A stretch of 47,309 nt of DNA, taken from IMG/VR virus record IMGVR_UViG_3300025127_000067, positions 1 through 47,309 of that record; one strand, 5' to 3'. The notes under the pieces are model-generated. The model was given only the letters and a program-made list of their open reading frames with translations, had not been told where the DNA came from and did not search any database. Position numbers and translations under genes: made by a program. Below are positions 21,697-46,722 of the stretch, one piece after another (the stretch's first letter is position 1; every line of letters begins with the position of its first letter). The stretch comes from a virus.

Positions 21697-21990
21697 ATGA
21701 ATTTTAAGCCATTTAATCGTTATATTTGGGTTAACCCAATTGAAGAAGAAGAGGAAGAACAAAATGTAGCTATTGTGCTACCAGATAATTATAAGAAGCA
21801 GCCGTCTGTATATTTGATGTGTGAGGTGAAACAAGTTTCTGATGAATGCAAATTTCATCATCAACTCAAGAGTGGTGACAAAATAATTATTGAGAGAAGG
21901 ATGCTGTGTTCTATTGACATAACAGAAAAACCGGTCTATTTAGTATTGGAAAATTATGTTTATGGGAGAATAACAGATGAAAATAACTAA
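21697..21990 (+). CDS. GroES-like co-chaperonin
   Basis: 97 aa, SD ATGGAGGG. FNRYIWVNPIEEEEEEQN resembles the GroES start (..DRVLVKP.E.EE), followed by the mobile-loop-like tripeptide IVL in VAIVLPD (residues 26-28), which in GroES contacts GroEL, then LKSGDKIIIERR (GroES: VKVGD.V...) and YLVLENYVYGRI (GroES: ..il.e.dilA.i). Length equals GroES (97 aa). It is probably the co-chaperonin partner of the phage GroEL encoded 16 kb away at 37592, similar in concept to T4 gp31. The family call rests on fold-level motif order, so moderate confidence. Confidence 0.68.
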   Translation: MNFKPFNRYIWVNPIEEEEEEQNVAIVLPDNYKKQPSVYLMCEVKQVSDECKFHHQLKSGDKIIIERRMLCSIDITEKPVYLVLENYVYGRITDENN

Positions 21991-32775: not shown

Positions 32776-33062
32776 ATAGAAAGCAGCGGAGAATGAGAAA
32801 GAAAGCCCTTAAGAAAGCAAAGGTTAACGAATCAGCTTTTGAACAAAAGATGGGGCTTTTTGATCTCATACCAAACGACTGTATGATTTGCCATGCTGAA
32901 TTCGACAAAACCAGCAAAGAAATGGTTTCAACATGGCAGGTTACTGTCAGAGAGAAAGAAAAACTCGTTAGAGTGTATTGTCCATCCTGCTGGTCTAAAG
33001 CACAGAATCTATTAAGCCAGCTTGGGATGGATAATAATGAAGAACAAAAAAGAGAAGACTAA
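32772..33062 (+). CDS. Zinc-finger small protein
   Basis: 96 aa, ATGA overlap with dut. Basic start MNRKQRRMRKKALKKAK, then CMICHAEF and CPSCWSK, two CxxC pairs about 40 residues apart that can bind one zinc ion. The family, with 'KEMV.TW.V.VR' between the pairs, recurs in large myoviruses without known function. Possible nucleic acid or regulatory role. Confidence 0.65.
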   Translation: MNRKQRRMRKKALKKAKVNESAFEQKMGLFDLIPNDCMICHAEFDKTSKEMVSTWQVTVREKEKLVRVYCPSCWSKAQNLLSQLGMDNNEEQKRED

Positions 33063-33366
33063 AAGACTTGTATTCGATGACACAGACTCTAGGCATGCAC
33101 AATTAAAGGTTCGTCTAGATTATGACGGACTCACACAAGCGGAGTTCTTCAGGTCATTTATAACTGGCTATCTTAATAAAGATGAACTGGTGATGAACTT
33201 TATAAGAAAGTACAAAGAAGACAAAAAGATACAAAGCAAAAGAAACATTAAAATTATAATGAAAGACTATGAAAATGCTGAGGTTTTACTTTCGAGATTC
33301 GGCATAGAGCAAGATGAATTGGAGAACATTTTTGATTTAATTGCAAAAGAGCACCCTGATTTATAA
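33037..33366 (+). CDS. Ribbon-helix-helix-like regulator candidate
   Basis: 109 aa from ATG 33037 within the end of the previous gene; a TTG at 33022 is the alternative. KRLVFDDTDSRHAQLKVRLD, then YDGLTQAEFFRSFITGYLNK reads as strand-helix-helix, as in ribbon-helix-helix DNA-binding proteins. The C-terminal half is charged and helical. No terminator follows; 62 bp later comes the acidic scaffold-like gene. Confidence 0.5.
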   Translation: MKNKKEKTKRLVFDDTDSRHAQLKVRLDYDGLTQAEFFRSFITGYLNKDELVMNFIRKYKEDKKIQSKRNIKIIMKDYENAEVLLSRFGIEQDELENIFDLIAKEHPDL

Positions 33367-42307: not shown

Positions 42308-42673
42308 ATGAAGCTTTTTGAAAGTATCATATTTATAGTAATATGCGCCGTGCTGACTCAGGCATGCATGTTGAGTGTGACAGTGAAAGATAATTCACTA
42401 ACGTCAAGCCAGCAAACCAATGCAGAACTATCTTATGAGGCTACTGAGCAAACGGTCATACAGCCTACTACCCCCCTACCCCCGCGCCAAATTAAAAAGA
42501 AAAGACCGCGCAAGAGGTATAAAAAATCGAGAACCAAACATAGATATAAGCATCCGCCAACCAAAAGAAACAGGCCACCAGTAAAGAGGAGCAGGCCGAA
42601 AAAGAAAAAAAGAATAATTAAAAAACCTAAAAGGACAAAAAATGTCCTACCCAAAGATAAAGAAAAGAGATAG
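42308..42673 (+). CDS. Putative lipoprotein with basic, proline-rich tail
   Basis: 121 aa, SD ATGGAGAT. Signal peptide: MKLFESIIFIVICAVLTQAC with Lys2, a hydrophobic core and a lipobox-like end at Cys20. Then a short Ser/Thr region and a very basic Lys/Arg/Pro tail (RQIKKKRPRKRYKKSRTKHR and on). A lipidated, basic, Pro-rich protein is reminiscent of outer-membrane spanins or envelope-binding proteins. The last 40 bp coincide with a promoter element (42633-42676). Confidence 0.55.
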   Translation: MKLFESIIFIVICAVLTQACMLSVTVKDNSLTSSQQTNAELSYEATEQTVIQPTTPLPPRQIKKKRPRKRYKKSRTKHRYKHPPTKRNRPPVKRSRPKKKKRIIKKPKRTKNVLPKDKEKR

Positions 42674-42676
42674 ATT
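42633..42676 (+). promoter_or_regulatory. Palindrome-TACCC promoter, copy A
   Basis: GGACA-AAAAA-TGTCC (42633-42647), TACCC (42648-42652), then 18 nt to TAGATT (42671-42676) in the -10 position. Drives the unit at 42702. Lies in the 3' end of the lipoprotein gene. Weakest -10 of the five. Confidence 0.7.
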
Positions 42677-42701
42677 AATAGTACCAACAGAGAGGTGAAA
42701 C

Positions 42702-42995
42702 ATGGCAAATATTTTTTGGAGAGGCGAAAAAGCCTCAAGAGAACAAGCGATTGAGATGCTTATGGAAGAGATGCCTGAGTATACTGACGGCAGATTCTGG
42801 GTTCGTTTTGAAAGCGACGACACCAGTAATCATTTAACTGCGATAATTGAAAGCGAGCACAATGCAACAACACCAGAGTTCAAATTAAAAAGAAAACTAC
42901 CAGCAAAATTTATGGGCCACAGACTAATTGTTAAGTCTGTACCACCAGATTACATTGATGCTATAATTCTTGCAAAGGAGAAAGACGATGCTTAA
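42702..42995 (+). CDS. Unknown small phage protein
   Basis: 97 aa, SD AGAGGTG. FWRGEKASREQAIEMLMEEM, GRFWVRFESDDTSNHLTAII and FMGHRLIVKSVPPDYI. Alpha then beta; resembles no named family. First gene behind promoter copy A; overlaps the next gene by 8 bp. Confidence 0.55.
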   Translation: MANIFWRGEKASREQAIEMLMEEMPEYTDGRFWVRFESDDTSNHLTAIIESEHNATTPEFKLKRKLPAKFMGHRLIVKSVPPDYIDAIILAKEKDDA

Positions 42996-43158
42996 ACCAT
43001 TTAAGATAACCAAGCAACACCTTAAAGAATATAAATACTTAGACGAGAGCGACATTGGTTTATATGCTATACAAGCTAAGGAAGACCAAGAGCTTATGTT
43101 ATATGAAACAAAGCAACTCGCAGCTAAAGCTTATGAATATTTCAAAAGTTTCAAATAG
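42988..43158 (+). CDS. Unknown small basic helical protein
   Basis: 56 aa from ATG 42988 (SD AAAGGAGAAA); TTG 42970 is out of place relative to the SD. FKITKQHLKEYKYLDESDIG, then ETKQLAAKAYEYFKSFK. Ends exactly where promoter copy B begins. Function unknown. Confidence 0.5.
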   Translation: MLKPFKITKQHLKEYKYLDESDIGLYAIQAKEDQELMLYETKQLAAKAYEYFKSFK

Positions 43159-43204
43159 GACAATTTGTGTCCTACCCAAGAATAATAAAACATGATACTA
43201 TAAT
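43158..43204 (+). promoter_or_regulatory. Palindrome-TACCC promoter, copy B
   Basis: GGACA-ATTTG-TGTCC (43158-43172), TACCC (43173-43177), 18 nt, TACTAT (43196-43201) overlapping TATAAT (43199-43204). Serves the gene at 43223, whose ATG is 22 nt past the -10. Confidence 0.75.
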
Positions 43205-43222
43205 TGTATCCAGAGGAAAACT

Positions 43223-43378
43223 ATGAATATTGGTGACTTAATTGAATTGAGAGGCGAAAAGTTTATAATAATTGACATAGATTATGACAATGTACCAGAG
43301 ATACTAATCGCTTACTCGGCTATTAATAACTATAAAATATATTTTACTATGGATGAAATTGAATTTTGGAGGCAATGA
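43223..43378 (+). CDS. Small SH3/KOW-like protein (GDLI type)
   Basis: 51 aa from ATG 43223 (SD AGAGGAA). MNIGDLIELRGEKFIIIDID and ILIAYSAINNYKIYFTMDEI: short barrel-like chain with GDLI in place of GDLV. Stop overlaps the HNH gene start. Confidence 0.5.
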   Translation: MNIGDLIELRGEKFIIIDIDYDNVPEILIAYSAINNYKIYFTMDEIEFWRQ

Positions 43379-43953
43379 TGACCAGACCATACGTTAGAAA
43401 AGTGACACTAAATGAACACCTCGAACTACTGAACCAAAACTCCAGAGCTTCCAACAGAGAGATTGCAAGCTTGAGGAGAAGAATATCAGATAAGTTCAGA
43501 GATTGCGGATACCCAAACGCTGCGAAGAGAGATGATCTTGTTGATGAGTACATTAATATGATATTCGAGACTCAGAATTATAGATGTACACATTGGCTCA
43601 GAGTAGGTAAAGGAGAATACAACGGTGTATGGAACCGTCCGTTTAAGGGATATCGAGGCTGGTTGACGGATAGAGTCATGTATGAAGTAGATCATGTTCA
43701 TCCAAGAAACGCCGGTGGCAAAGACGAGTTAACAAACTATCAATTCTTATCTGCTAATGCAAATCAGTTTGTGAAATGTTCGCTTACTTATGATGATTTG
43801 CTTTGCCGAGTGGACTTATCAGCGCGTCTTAAGCGAAGAATAAGAACTGTCCTTGCAAGGAGAAGAAAACTTTTTAAGTCAGAAAAGTGGACAAACTTTA
43901 TGGCCAAGATGGAAGATACAAAAAGGCCAATTTTTGACCTACCCAAACTATAA
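43378..43953 (+). CDS. HNH endonuclease
   Basis: 191 aa from ATG 43378 (SD GGAGG at 43368; ATG 43375 possible). N-terminal helical, basic part, then YRCTHWLRVG and the HNH core YEVDHVHPRNAGGKDELTNY followed by FLSANANQFVKCS, with DH...N...N layout. It cleaves DNA with one metal ion. Could be a homing endonuclease or act in genome exclusion; no intron is apparent beside it. The 3' end contains promoter copy E. Confidence 0.8.
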   Translation: MTRPYVRKVTLNEHLELLNQNSRASNREIASLRRRISDKFRDCGYPNAAKRDDLVDEYINMIFETQNYRCTHWLRVGKGEYNGVWNRPFKGYRGWLTDRVMYEVDHVHPRNAGGKDELTNYQFLSANANQFVKCSLTYDDLLCRVDLSARLKRRIRTVLARRRKLFKSEKWTNFMAKMEDTKRPIFDLPKL

Positions 43954-43968
43954 GTAACAAGATATACT
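43925..43968 (+). promoter_or_regulatory. Palindrome-TACCC promoter, copy E
   Basis: GGCCA-ATTTT-TGACC (43925-43939), TACCC (43940-43944), 18 nt, TATACT (43963-43968). Both half-sites differ from the A-C copies in the same compensating way (GGCCA/TGACC is an imperfect pair). Drives 43985. Confidence 0.75.
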
Positions 43969-43984
43969 TTATATAGGAGGCATG

Positions 43985-44155
43985 ATGGAGGTTGGAGATT
44001 TAGTGAGACTCAGGCCAGAACACAACGACGTTGGCTGGCTTGACATTATTTTTATAATAACGAAAGAGGATAAACAAACGGGCATGGTGGAAGTATCAAC
44101 CACAGATTTGACTTTCCCAGTGCCTAAGCGATTTTTGGAGGTAGTATATGGTTAG
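43985..44155 (+). CDS. Small SH3/KOW-like protein (GDLV family)
   Basis: 56 aa from ATG 43985 (SD GGAGG 43976; ATG 43982 is too close). MEVGDLVRLRPEHNDVGWLD and PVPKRFLEVVYG. First gene behind promoter copy E. Ends 8 bp into the next gene. Confidence 0.55.
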   Translation: MEVGDLVRLRPEHNDVGWLDIIFIITKEDKQTGMVEVSTTDLTFPVPKRFLEVVYG

Positions 44156-44393
44156 CAAGATGGAAGCAATTAAAGAAGCGATAAGCTTTATTCGTTACAA
44201 TTGGATTGGCAGAGCCAGTATTTGGCAAGGCGATGTAATAGACTTTGTGGGTGCTGTAATTAAGGCCCCTGTTAGTCATATTGATATTAAGAACCTTATC
44301 GAAGCTATTAATAATGGTGAGCCTACCCCGATACAGGGACTGGGGGGTACAATTGAGAATAATAAACTTACGAAAGTGTGGGTTACAAAATGA
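44148..44393 (+). CDS. Unknown small protein
   Basis: 81 aa from ATG 44148, SD TTGGAGG. KEAISFIRYNWIGRASIWQG, ISHIDIKN-like helices and GGTIENNKLTKVWVTK. No family. Stop overlaps the zinc-knuckle gene start (ATGA 44390-44393). Confidence 0.5.
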   Translation: MVSKMEAIKEAISFIRYNWIGRASIWQGDVIDFVGAVIKAPVSHIDIKNLIEAINNGEPTPIQGLGGTIENNKLTKVWVTK

Positions 44394-45163
44394 TTGGTTT
44401 AGATTATACATATGAAATTACATGTGGTTTTTGTGGTACACCGGGTCACAATATCACAACGTGCCCTCAAGTTGCAGTGATAGCAGAAGACGCTCATCAA
44501 AAAGAAGCTTGTGGGTATTCCATAACTTATAGGCATAGGCAAGCACTACAAGAAATGAAAAGAAGAAAACAAAGAAAGGCCAACAAAAACAAGCCAAGAA
44601 CTAAGGCAAAATGTTCCTACTGTAGGAATGAAAACCATCGTAGGCCAAGCTGCAAAAAGCACAAAGAGTTAAGGTCCAAGATTTATTTAGCCAACGATAA
44701 CTGGAAGGCAAAGTTTGTGGAAACAATTAACGAGGTTGGTATTGGTATTGGTTCATTGGTTATGATACCAAAGCAGGTCATAGATTGGTCTGCCAGAAGT
44801 GATGACTGGGCTACTTGCATGGTGATAGACTACAACTTGGATAGCATGAATGTGTTTAACACATACAGCGGTAGAGACAATTTTAGAACATCAGCTAAAA
44901 TGAGACTGGCAACAGTTGATGCCACAAGAGATTTTTTATGGGATTTTTCAAGAGTCACGCCGTTCAATTCTTTGGAGCTAACTAACGTAGGTTATGCAAA
45001 AGGTTACGAGCCTACTAAAATTGTATCAGGGTGCCGATGGGAGCCACCAGAGCATTGGCTAACGGGTAAAAATCCTGAGATAGAGTACGTGCTGAAGAAG
45101 ATTTCGTTATCTGATCAGATTCTGACTCAAAGAGTACAAAAATTAATAAACAAATGGAGCTAA
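44390..45163 (+). CDS. Double CCHC zinc-knuckle protein
   Basis: 257 aa from ATG 44390. Two exact CX2CX4HX4C zinc knuckles: CGFCGTPGHNITTC (Cys12/15, His20, Cys25) and CSYCRNENHRRPSC (Cys75/78, His83, Cys88), joined by a very basic linker (KRRKQRKANKNKPRTKAK). Retroviral nucleocapsid and cellular RNA-binding proteins use this module to bind single-stranded nucleic acid. The remaining 165 residues (VIPKQVIDWSARSDDWATCM and others) are unrecognised. An RNA- or ssDNA-binding regulator is likely. Confidence 0.75.
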   Translation: MIGLDYTYEITCGFCGTPGHNITTCPQVAVIAEDAHQKEACGYSITYRHRQALQEMKRRKQRKANKNKPRTKAKCSYCRNENHRRPSCKKHKELRSKIYLANDNWKAKFVETINEVGIGIGSLVMIPKQVIDWSARSDDWATCMVIDYNLDSMNVFNTYSGRDNFRTSAKMRLATVDATRDFLWDFSRVTPFNSLELTNVGYAKGYEPTKIVSGCRWEPPEHWLTGKNPEIEYVLKKISLSDQILTQRVQKLINKWS

Positions 45164-45164
45164 T

Positions 45165-45302
45165 ATGAACAAGTTTGTCAGAAGAGCAGTGGCACGATCA
45201 CGCATCAATAGCGAATACTTCACGAGAAAAAAAGGACAAAAGATGTCCTACCCAGATGGCGAGGAACATGATACGATAAAGATAACCAAGGAGGAAAAAT
45301 GA
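45165..45302 (+). CDS. Tiny basic ORF overlapping promoter copy C
   Basis: 45 aa from ATG 45165 with SD TGGAGC. Basic start MNKFVRRAVARSRINSEYF; the second half, from about residue 22, is simply the translation of promoter copy C (45234-45277). It may be a genuine small gene whose end hosts the promoter, as in the four other copies, or a chance ORF. Confidence 0.35.
   Translation: MNKFVRRAVARSRINSEYFTRKKGQKMSYPDGEEHDTIKITKEEK
45234..45277 (+). promoter_or_regulatory. Palindrome-TACCC promoter, copy C
   Basis: GGACA-AAAGA-TGTCC (45234-45248), TACCC (45249-45253), 18 nt, TACGAT (45272-45277). Drives the unit at 45299; ATG is 22 nt past the -10, as in copy B. Confidence 0.75.
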
Positions 45303-45481
45303 TTGACATTAACAAAATCATTAAATACGAAAGTGGTGAGATGGACCAAGAAGAGACAATTAGTTTTTTCCAAGAACTAATTGATACTGGTCATGCTTGG
45401 AGACTGCAAGGTCACTATGGCAGGACAGCACTTAGACTAATCGAATATGGTCTGTGCCGGAGGGCTTTATCATGCAAGTAG
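45299..45481 (+). CDS. Small conserved phage protein (YESGE type)
   Basis: 60 aa, SD AAGGAGG, ATGA overlap. IIKYESGEMDQEETISFFQE and HAWRLQGHYGRTALRLIEYG are the hallmark of a widespread small phage protein family of unknown function. First gene behind promoter copy C. The usual family ends near GLI, so the last residues (CRRALSCK) are extra. Confidence 0.75.
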   Translation: MIDINKIIKYESGEMDQEETISFFQELIDTGHAWRLQGHYGRTALRLIEYGLCRRALSCK

Positions 45482-45675
45482 GTGATTTAGTAAGAATAAA
45501 AGGAGAGTGGGCACAAAAGAACCCTTGGATGAGAGGCACACTGATTGACGATAGTCCCGAGATAATGGGTATCGTTGTTAGTGTCAGGCACGGGATCGGC
45601 TTCGACATGTGGAAAGTTGAGTGGCTTGATGGTCGCTCAAGTGAGGTCTTAGGGAATAAATTGGAGGTAGCATGA
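45472..45675 (+). CDS. Small SH3/KOW-like protein (GDLV family)
   Basis: 67 aa from ATG 45472 (SD CGGAGGG). MQVGDLVRIKGEWAQKNPWM, IMGIVVSVRHGIGF and WKVEWLDGRSSEVLGNKLEV. One of the clearest members: GDLV, then a GIVV strand, then V-x-W-L-D. Overlaps its neighbours at both ends. Confidence 0.65.
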   Translation: MQVGDLVRIKGEWAQKNPWMRGTLIDDSPEIMGIVVSVRHGIGFDMWKVEWLDGRSSEVLGNKLEVA

Positions 45676-45845
45676 AAGTAGGAGATGTGGCGTTAGACAA
45701 ATCAGACGGTGCCAAGCTTCTTATACTGGAAGTGGACCCCTGTGGCGATATATATTGTTATTGTTTAGAGGCTGATGCATACTATTGGTATTTTGAAGAC
45801 CAAGCTCAAAAGTATTTGGAGGTGCTATATGAAGTGGATTCGTAA
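45672..45845 (+). CDS. Small SH3/KOW-like protein (GDVA type)
   Basis: 57 aa from ATG 45672 (SD TTGGAGG), ATGA overlap with the previous gene. MKVGDVALDKSDGAKLLILE, then Cys-rich strand CGDIYCYCLEADAYYWYF. Overlaps the next gene by 17 bp. Confidence 0.5.
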   Translation: MKVGDVALDKSDGAKLLILEVDPCGDIYCYCLEADAYYWYFEDQAQKYLEVLYEVDS

Positions 45846-46026
45846 ATTATTTGGTATAAAAAGCTCGCTTGAAAAAAAGCAAGCTAAATTAGCAGAGTTA
45901 CGTGAGAAGGCGTTTGAGGCACAAAGACGAGGCAATCTCTCTCTGGCGGGCAAATATCTGCATGAAGCAGAGGCACTGGAGACAGAGATTGTTAATGAAT
46001 TAGAGGCACAATCCGATGGTGAGTAA
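45829..46026 (+). CDS. Lacal_2735/DUF6435-like small helical protein
   Basis: 65 aa from ATG 45829 (SD TTGGAGG). MKWIRKLFGIKSSLEKKQAK, then LREKAFEAQRRGNLSLAGKY and a final EAEALETEIV: a two-helix hairpin like the small 'KLF.....K..K....L...A...s......k..EA..l..eI' family found in bacteria and phages. Function unknown. Confidence 0.6.
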   Translation: MKWIRKLFGIKSSLEKKQAKLAELREKAFEAQRRGNLSLAGKYLHEAEALETEIVNELEAQSDGE

Positions 46027-46477
46027 TGACTATTTTATTAAATGGAACCCGAATGTGGATTATCGGGCAAATCCTGAGCTTTATCACATCGGCAAAGGAC
46101 AGCAGGGTGTTTTAATCTGCGAGCCGTATAAGTCTGAAATATGCCAACATTGGCGGTTTAAGACTGTACCAGAGGCGAAAATTAGTAGTCAAAAGATACT
46201 CTGCATGTTCTATGAGTACCTGTCTCAGGGTGACTTTGTTGGTGCTGACATGGCCAAAAAGTATCTACACATGGGCTTCACACGCGCACGTCGTTATGCA
46301 AATCACAGAGATGGTAAAAAATATGCATCAGATGGCACCGTACTACCTCAAGAGCCTGACGCTCTCACTTGTGAAAAAGCACAGAGTGCTAAAGTTTTTT
46401 ATTCATGCTGGAAAGAAGCCCGTGAGAACCAAGTCTATCTAAAAATGAAACAAAAATTCAAAGCGGACAAAAAATGA
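46016..46477 (+). CDS. DUF4385 family protein
   Basis: 153 aa from ATG 46016, overlapping the previous stop. NPELYHIGKGQQGVLICEPY, ICQHWRFKTVPEAKIS, DFVGADMAKKYLHMGFTRAR and RYANHRDGKKY are the conserved blocks of DUF4385, a family I know from bacteria and phages without a function. Arg, Tyr and His clusters suggest a nucleic-acid or nucleotide site. The end overlaps promoter copy D. Confidence 0.85.
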   Translation: MVSNDYFIKWNPNVDYRANPELYHIGKGQQGVLICEPYKSEICQHWRFKTVPEAKISSQKILCMFYEYLSQGDFVGADMAKKYLHMGFTRARRYANHRDGKKYASDGTVLPQEPDALTCEKAQSAKVFYSCWKEARENQVYLKMKQKFKADKK

Positions 46478-46508
46478 CCTACCGCTCAAAACTAAAATAA
46501 GATATAAT
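46465..46508 (+). promoter_or_regulatory. Palindrome-TACCC promoter, copy D
   Basis: GGACA-AAAAA-TGACC (46465-46479), TACCG (46480-46484), 18 nt, TATAAT (46503-46508), the best -10 of the five. Drives 46528. Confidence 0.78.
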
Positions 46509-46527
46509 TTATATACAAGGAGGCAAA

Positions 46528-46722
46528 ATGGAAATAGGTAGTAAAGTAAAAGTCATTAGTAAGGTTTACCATGATGGCCTTTCACTTCTAAATCAGTACG
46601 GTGAGATATCTGGTAGGATATATTTATTCAAAAATAAACCCCCTCACGCCTACTACGTTAGTTTTGCTTTTATACCATCACTCGTAATTGTTAGACCAAA
46701 GAACTTGGAGTTGTTAAAATGA
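46528..46722 (+). CDS. Small SH3/KOW-like protein
   Basis: 64 aa, SD AAGGAGG. MEIGSKVKVISKVYHDGLSL, QYGEISGRIYLFKNK and FIPSLVIVRPKNLELL. The GSKV start is a variant of GDLV. First gene behind promoter copy D; stop overlaps the next start. Confidence 0.55.
   Translation: MEIGSKVKVISKVYHDGLSLLNQYGEISGRIYLFKNKPPHAYYVSFAFIPSLVIVRPKNLELLK

Follow-up and report, generated by a model that had tools for sequence, protein, structure and literature searches.

The stretch of DNA analysed here (the window), IMG/VR virus record IMGVR_UViG_3300025127_000067, is a linear fragment of virus DNA, 47,309 bases long, and near its right end lies a region of tiny genes on the plus strand (42702–46722). These encode a conserved protein of 97 amino acids (aa), KOW/SH3-like 'VGDLV' proteins, and HNH-like and zinc-knuckle proteins, as assigned from open reading frames (ORFs), sub-threshold Pfam matches and synteny with relatives. 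The region is apparently driven by five promoters of common layout, in which a palindrome is followed directly by a TACC sequence at the −35 position and, at a constant distance, by a −10 hexamer. A preliminary description of the locus had listed five such copies, and all were recovered at the same coordinates. Searching the whole window with the full layout (GGNCA-N5-TGNCC-TACC-N19-TANNNT) gave exactly five matches, all on the plus strand, and none in 100 dinucleotide-preserving shuffles of the window (chance expectation 0.00). When scored with a weight matrix of the promoter sites, the real copies reach at least 35.8 bits and every shuffled sequence falls below 0. There is no sixth copy of the full layout anywhere in the 47.3 kb window, in agreement with the earlier observation that none lies outside 42.6–46.5 kb; the window ends 0.8 kb past the last copy, and there may be further copies beyond its right end.

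The first copy (42633–42676) consists of the palindrome GGACA-AAAAA-TGTCC (42633–42647), TACCCA at the −35 position (42648–42653) and a −10 hexamer TAGATT (42671–42676), and it precedes the 97-aa ORF at 42702, whose orthologous genes in L160 and L161 have the same promoter. The second (43158–43201; GGACA-ATTTG-TGTCC, TACCCA, −10 TACTAT at 43196–43201) lies upstream of a 51-aa KOW-like ORF at 43223, and the third (43925–43968; GGCCA-ATTTT-TGACC, TACCCA, −10 TATACT at 43963–43968) upstream of an ORF starting at 43982 or 43985. The fourth (45234–45277; GGACA-AAAGA-TGTCC, TACCCA) has the extended −10 TGATACGAT, with its hexamer at 45272–45277, and precedes a 60-aa ORF at 45299; the fifth (46465–46508; GGACA-AAAAA-TGACC, TACCGC, −10 TATAAT at 46503–46508) precedes a 64-aa ORF at 46528. 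In all five, TACCC and the −10 are 23 bases apart, as given previously, with TACTAT as the hexamer at that distance in the second copy and a better TATAAT overlapping it 3 bp downstream. Four of the five copies are inside the upstream ORF and the copy at 43158 overlaps the TAG stop of its upstream ORF, consistent with the described location at the 3' ends of preceding genes. The next ATG follows the −10 by 25, 21, 13 (16 to a second ATG), 21 and 19 bases in copies 1 to 5 respectively; the spacing of 17–26 bp reported for the set applies to copies 1, 2, 4 and 5 but not to the copy at 43925. Tiny KOW/SH3-like proteins starting M(x)VGDLV are encoded at 43223–46722, there are many diverged copies in the window and its relatives, and several of these gene copies are each preceded by a palindrome promoter of their own.

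The window and its relatives are an uncultured myovirus lineage with large genomes; syntenic uncultured relatives include G001 (185,652 bp), G012 (185,386 bp) and G015 (191,495 bp), and G002 is 38,034 bp long. A search of the whole genome and of related phages had been proposed; the window has only the five copies, and the same element recurs in related contigs, with about 265 distinct copies of the promoter family in relatives. Genome-wide scans show one main palindrome cluster, with the palindromes, approximately 12–28 in each genome that is well covered, gathered mainly in the tiny-gene region; 0.04–0.43 palindromes per genome are expected by chance. G001 has 15 copies of the exact TACCC form (151.3–162.8 kb), together with three palindromes ahead of TTGACA-type −35 boxes, and G002 has seven copies of it, or nine with two variants included. 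The TACCC copies in these two relatives have a single orientation and the same 23-base distance, and all are in the tiny-gene region. There are 18 palindrome promoters in G012, 11 in G010, 7 in G014, and about 20 each in G015 and G016; palindromes at G012 90450 and G010 23488 are at chance level, have no promoter, and were set aside. In a set of 27 sites found by the palindrome and TACC alone, with no requirement for −10 spacing, the −10 is at an identical distance in 27 of 27, is extended by a G at −14 in 24, and an A-rich run lies immediately upstream of the palindrome.

The hexamer beside the palindrome varies among relatives, being TCGACA in G010, TGGACT or TGGATA in G012, and AAGACA or GAGACA in G014. 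A wider scan using only the palindrome and TATATTA added about 25 contigs, in which TTTACA, TCGACA, TTGACT and TTGATT are common at −35. Because the hexamer varies while the palindrome stays, we rejected TACCC as part of the conserved core, and sequence comparison indicates that the core, and the most conserved element across the relatives, is the palindrome GGWCA-N5-TGWCC. TACCC does occupy the −35 position, as first described, but it is not general, and represents a decayed −35 hexamer restricted to the window clade. Among 84,980 bacterial and archaeal species genomes the full promoter pattern was matched once, in Acholeplasma, probably by chance, and among viral contigs this promoter form was found only in the present lineage.

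From the start of the palindrome to the −10, promoters of the window clade measure a fixed 38 bp and those elsewhere mostly 37 bp. For 435 distinct palindromes, distances to a strong −10 form two peaks, one at 37/38 bp (144 sites) and one at 46–48 bp (25 sites); extra peaks at 39/40 and 49 arise when TATTAT within TATATTAT is taken as the −10 of these same promoters. Assuming that the −10 hexamer spans −12 to −7, the palindrome centres at about −42/−43 in the near group and about −51/−52 in the far group, approximately one helical turn apart; near palindromes directly adjoin the −35 hexamer. A full TTGACA is present at 7 of 144 near sites versus 16 of 25 far sites (p = 3e-11), and in a separate test starting from −10 boxes before genes it accompanies none of 31 near-type palindromic promoters, whereas 37 of the 104 other −10s examined in these genomes have it (p = 1.5e-5); both statistics take sites as independent, although many share ancestry. 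Within the window clade the spacer between −35 and −10 is 40% identical between sites and constant in length in 33 sites, a set that was selected with that spacing, and it is likewise constant in the unselected 27-site set; the leader from −10 to ATG ranges from 16 to 49 bases. At three G001 sites (164347, 164638 and 165274) the palindrome is 9 bp further upstream, two having a full TTGACA and one TCGACA, with an ATG a few bases past the −10.

Some relatives lack the palindrome. G008 and G013 cover the same region, have none, and carry TTGACA at their promoters in the tiny-gene region; the core proteins of G008 are mostly 65–85% identical to the relatives' versions. G030 (172 kb) also has no palindrome, and its tiny-gene promoters (reverse strand, approximately 155–167 kb in reverse-complement coordinates) have TTGACA directly repeated two or three times (TTGACATTTACTTGACAATTTAACTGTTGACC) ahead of a TATAAT. 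It seems that the same gene cluster is wired with different operators in different phages. We also observed three G008 promoters, near 68740, 69340 and 70474 (partly in L205), of the form TTGACA-N17-TAGTGGATA, in which an inverted repeat, C(C/T)AC-N7-GTGG, overlies a poor −10; these combine a consensus −35 with a degraded −10, the opposite of the window promoters.

The sites, their conservation, their fixed geometry, the −35 trade-off and their confinement to one region of the genome are observed. Protein binding, activation and timing we infer from sequence, and on that footing the five elements are probably activator-dependent promoters, used by host polymerase with its main sigma factor and helped at a poor −35 by a dimer bound to the palindrome. 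Host RNA polymerase and the main sigma factor would read the sigma70-type −10, which in most sites has the extending G at −14, and a dimeric DNA-binding protein would occupy the 15-bp palindrome, from about −50 to −36, against the −35 hexamer. In class II style, the bound dimer would offset the poor −35 by contacting either the alpha C-terminal domain of the polymerase or region 4 of sigma. At promoters with the palindrome shifted upstream by one helical turn, the consensus −35 would be retained. Together the promoters would form one regulon, turning on a group of clustered small accessory genes. A reading in terms of class II and class I-type activation is suggested because there are two helically phased positions, a rigid distance, and a relaxed −35 beside the palindrome. 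A palindrome centred at −42/−43 and abutting the −35 is in the position of a class II activator, provided that the −10 occupies −12 to −7, and a sub-consensus −35 is what is expected of a class II promoter. The class II-like activator acting on a sigma70-type −10, already favoured in the preliminary description, is therefore the model that comparison of the relatives best supports, and the modified polymerase offered there as an alternative is not needed, as relatives with the same palindrome retain near-consensus −35 boxes.

Which protein might bind the palindrome was considered among the products of these phages. Among 89 G001 proteins scanned against Pfam, PHROGs and NCBIfam, none was annotated as a transcription factor of a suitable kind. 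The most plausible candidate of those tested, and a tentative one, is a Fis-fold protein of about 120 aa encoded at G001 180232–180609 (L155:232–606), outside the window fragment, with orthologues in many contigs of the lineage; at E 1e-3, none of 50,697 phage records matched it. Its AlphaFold model (pLDDT 77) has the four-helix layout of Fis, and its 27 best PDB matches in Foldseek are all Fis, with probabilities of 0.89–1.00 but E values of only 0.08–0.56; profile matches to Fis are weak (E 0.056–0.64) and Pfam helix-turn-helix matches are below threshold. Recognition by this protein is favoured because the site has the geometry of the 15-bp Fis core. The core of the Escherichia coli Fis site spans 15 bp, from a G at one end to a C at the other, and has an A/T centre, Y-R steps at ±(3–4) and no G directly upstream; Fis activates transcription by contacting the alpha or sigma subunit of polymerase and so recruiting it (PMC4784862). 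The palindrome fits this core (G1, C4A5, T11G12, C15, and a centre that is 91% A/T), although core ends and Y-R steps were demanded by the search pattern and so describe the motif and do not confirm it independently; a G just upstream of the core occurs in 2 of 265 sites and a C just downstream in 1 of 265. More speculatively, the Fis-fold protein could be the dedicated activator of a regulon of 10–30 promoters, whose −35 boxes, freed from selection, drifted from TTGACA to TACCCA clade by clade while related phages rewired the same cluster with other operators.

A ribbon-helix-helix-like protein is another possible binder. This 109-aa protein (window 33037–33366) is encoded next to a CxxC protein in nearly all relatives covering the region, and is also present in phages without the palindrome. 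It has a nearly invariant C-terminus (IFDLIAEEHPDL) and weak fold matches to the antitoxins RelB and DinJ; its AQLKVRL segment was dropped as a set of palindrome-tracking DNA contacts, since AlphaFold shows a helix there. A 90–97 aa protein (G001 162842 and relatives) is found only in palindrome-bearing phages among those compared, and has no DNA-binding signature.

Several observations weigh against the activator model or against the Fis-fold protein as its binder. The strong −10s in the near/far comparison were assigned by sequence, many of the contigs are interrelated, and copying of promoter cassettes could be partly behind the conserved geometry. The Fis-fold protein is also present in the palindrome-less G022, G027, G028 and G030 (some of them fragments), and its recognition helix varies among palindrome-bearing phages while the palindrome is constant. 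Arg85 of Fis makes a base contact from the recognition helix; such contacts are not conserved in the phage Fis-fold proteins when palindrome-bearing phages are compared. Finally, the palindrome adjoins the −35, and a repressor dimer bound there would keep polymerase out.

A host transcription factor borrowed by the phage, for example host Fis, is also possible as the binder, if doubtful, and it would change only the identity of the activator. It is consistent with the absence of any phage protein whose presence or absence ties it to the sites, and with the fit to the Fis core rules, but the single, apparently chance, match of the full pattern in the species genomes and the existence of closely related phages without the palindrome argue otherwise. 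The abutting position bears more directly on a second alternative, that the palindrome is the operator of a phage repressor shutting these promoters after early infection, the −10 and weak −35 being enough early on. In favour of this explanation, promoters of these genomes that lack the palindrome are strong and have TTGACA. Repressed promoters are nonetheless expected to have a strong −35 and to work with the operator moved by a few bases, whereas the −35 is degraded exactly where the palindrome adjoins and the distances are rigid and helically phased, and we consider repression unlikely.

Less likely again is sigma appropriation, in which a phage protein remodels sigma to read TACCC in the manner of T4 MotA/AsiA. 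TACCC is nearly invariant in the window clade at the −35 position, and T4 middle promoters also replace the −35 (PMC2988021), but in relatives the hexamer becomes TCGACA, TTTACA, TTGACT, AAGACA or TGGACT with the palindrome unchanged. That the palindrome acts in RNA, as a 3'-terminal hairpin or terminator of the upstream gene, was rejected as highly improbable: stems of 5–7 bp can be drawn in many copies and the sites overlap gene ends, but no T-run follows the palindrome, the site is fixed relative to the downstream −10 and not the upstream stop codon, and positions 3 and 13 do not covary, being A-A or T-T in 75 of 265 sites.

The remaining genes in the window, as read from ORFs, include tail tube and baseplate-like proteins, a RecA-like recombinase, DnaB-like helicase, DNA polymerase III alpha, ThyX, dUTPase, ClpP, an amidase and GroEL, of which GroEL, polymerase and RecA were assigned from search matches. 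Cultured phages are distant, with best matches 46% identical for GroEL and 31–33% for polymerase and RecA, and the three window proteins tried gave no close cultured phage (best matches below 46% identity). The phage GroEL (37592–39154) is about 83% identical among close relatives and less than 46% identical to known phage GroELs, and a small GroES-like protein is seemingly encoded at 21697–21990. G001 and G012 encode a late sigma factor like T4 gp55 (PHROG 234; E = 3.6e-5 in G012 and 0.0074 in G001), and a staged, T4-like programme is therefore plausible; T4-type late promoters (TATAAATA) are not enriched before genes.

The value of this lineage is that one virus family offers a natural series of a regulon apparently coming to depend on an activator. 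It runs from TTGACA with no palindrome, through the palindrome with TCGACA, TTTACA or TTGACT, then with TGGACT, then with TACCCA, and includes a palindrome one turn away with TTGACA kept. With this series, relaxed selection on the −35 beside an activator can be tested by counting and with reporters. The promoters also point to a set of accessory genes that are probably co-activated in these phages.

Among known systems, E. coli Fis sites are far less strict than the phage element, in which GG..CA/TG..CC is nearly invariant. Cluster K mycobacteriophages have start-codon-associated (SAS) motifs (GGGATAGGAGCCC), with 17-nt inverted repeats at variable spacing (PMC12699233). Like the phage promoters, these SAS/ESAS elements are short repeated elements with inverted repeats before many non-structural genes and have a proposed regulatory role; here, in contrast, a 15-bp palindrome is fixed relative to the −10, and identity with SAS/ESAS was rejected because leaders of the window family read AACCAAGGAGAA and their spacing is fixed. 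The T4 MotA box, WWWTGCTTtA, is non-palindromic, centred at −30 and 12±1 bp from the −10 (PMC2988021). T4 middle promoters share with the present ones a host −10, often with TGn, and a phage-specific element replacing the −35, but here the palindrome is at −42/−43 with a hexamer still in the −35 position, and identity with MotA promoters was rejected on sequence, symmetry and position in 27 of 27 sites. The closest resemblance is to class II activator-dependent sigma70 promoters, exemplified by Fis at proP P2, CRP at class II promoters and lambda CI at PRM, which likewise have a palindromic dimer site at about −42 against a poor −35, a normal or extended −10, and fixed phasing. The phage promoters differ in having many near-identical copies in one cluster, two positions and a clade-specific −35, with an activator that is predicted, and by these comparisons they appear to be a variation on a known activator-dependent promoter type.

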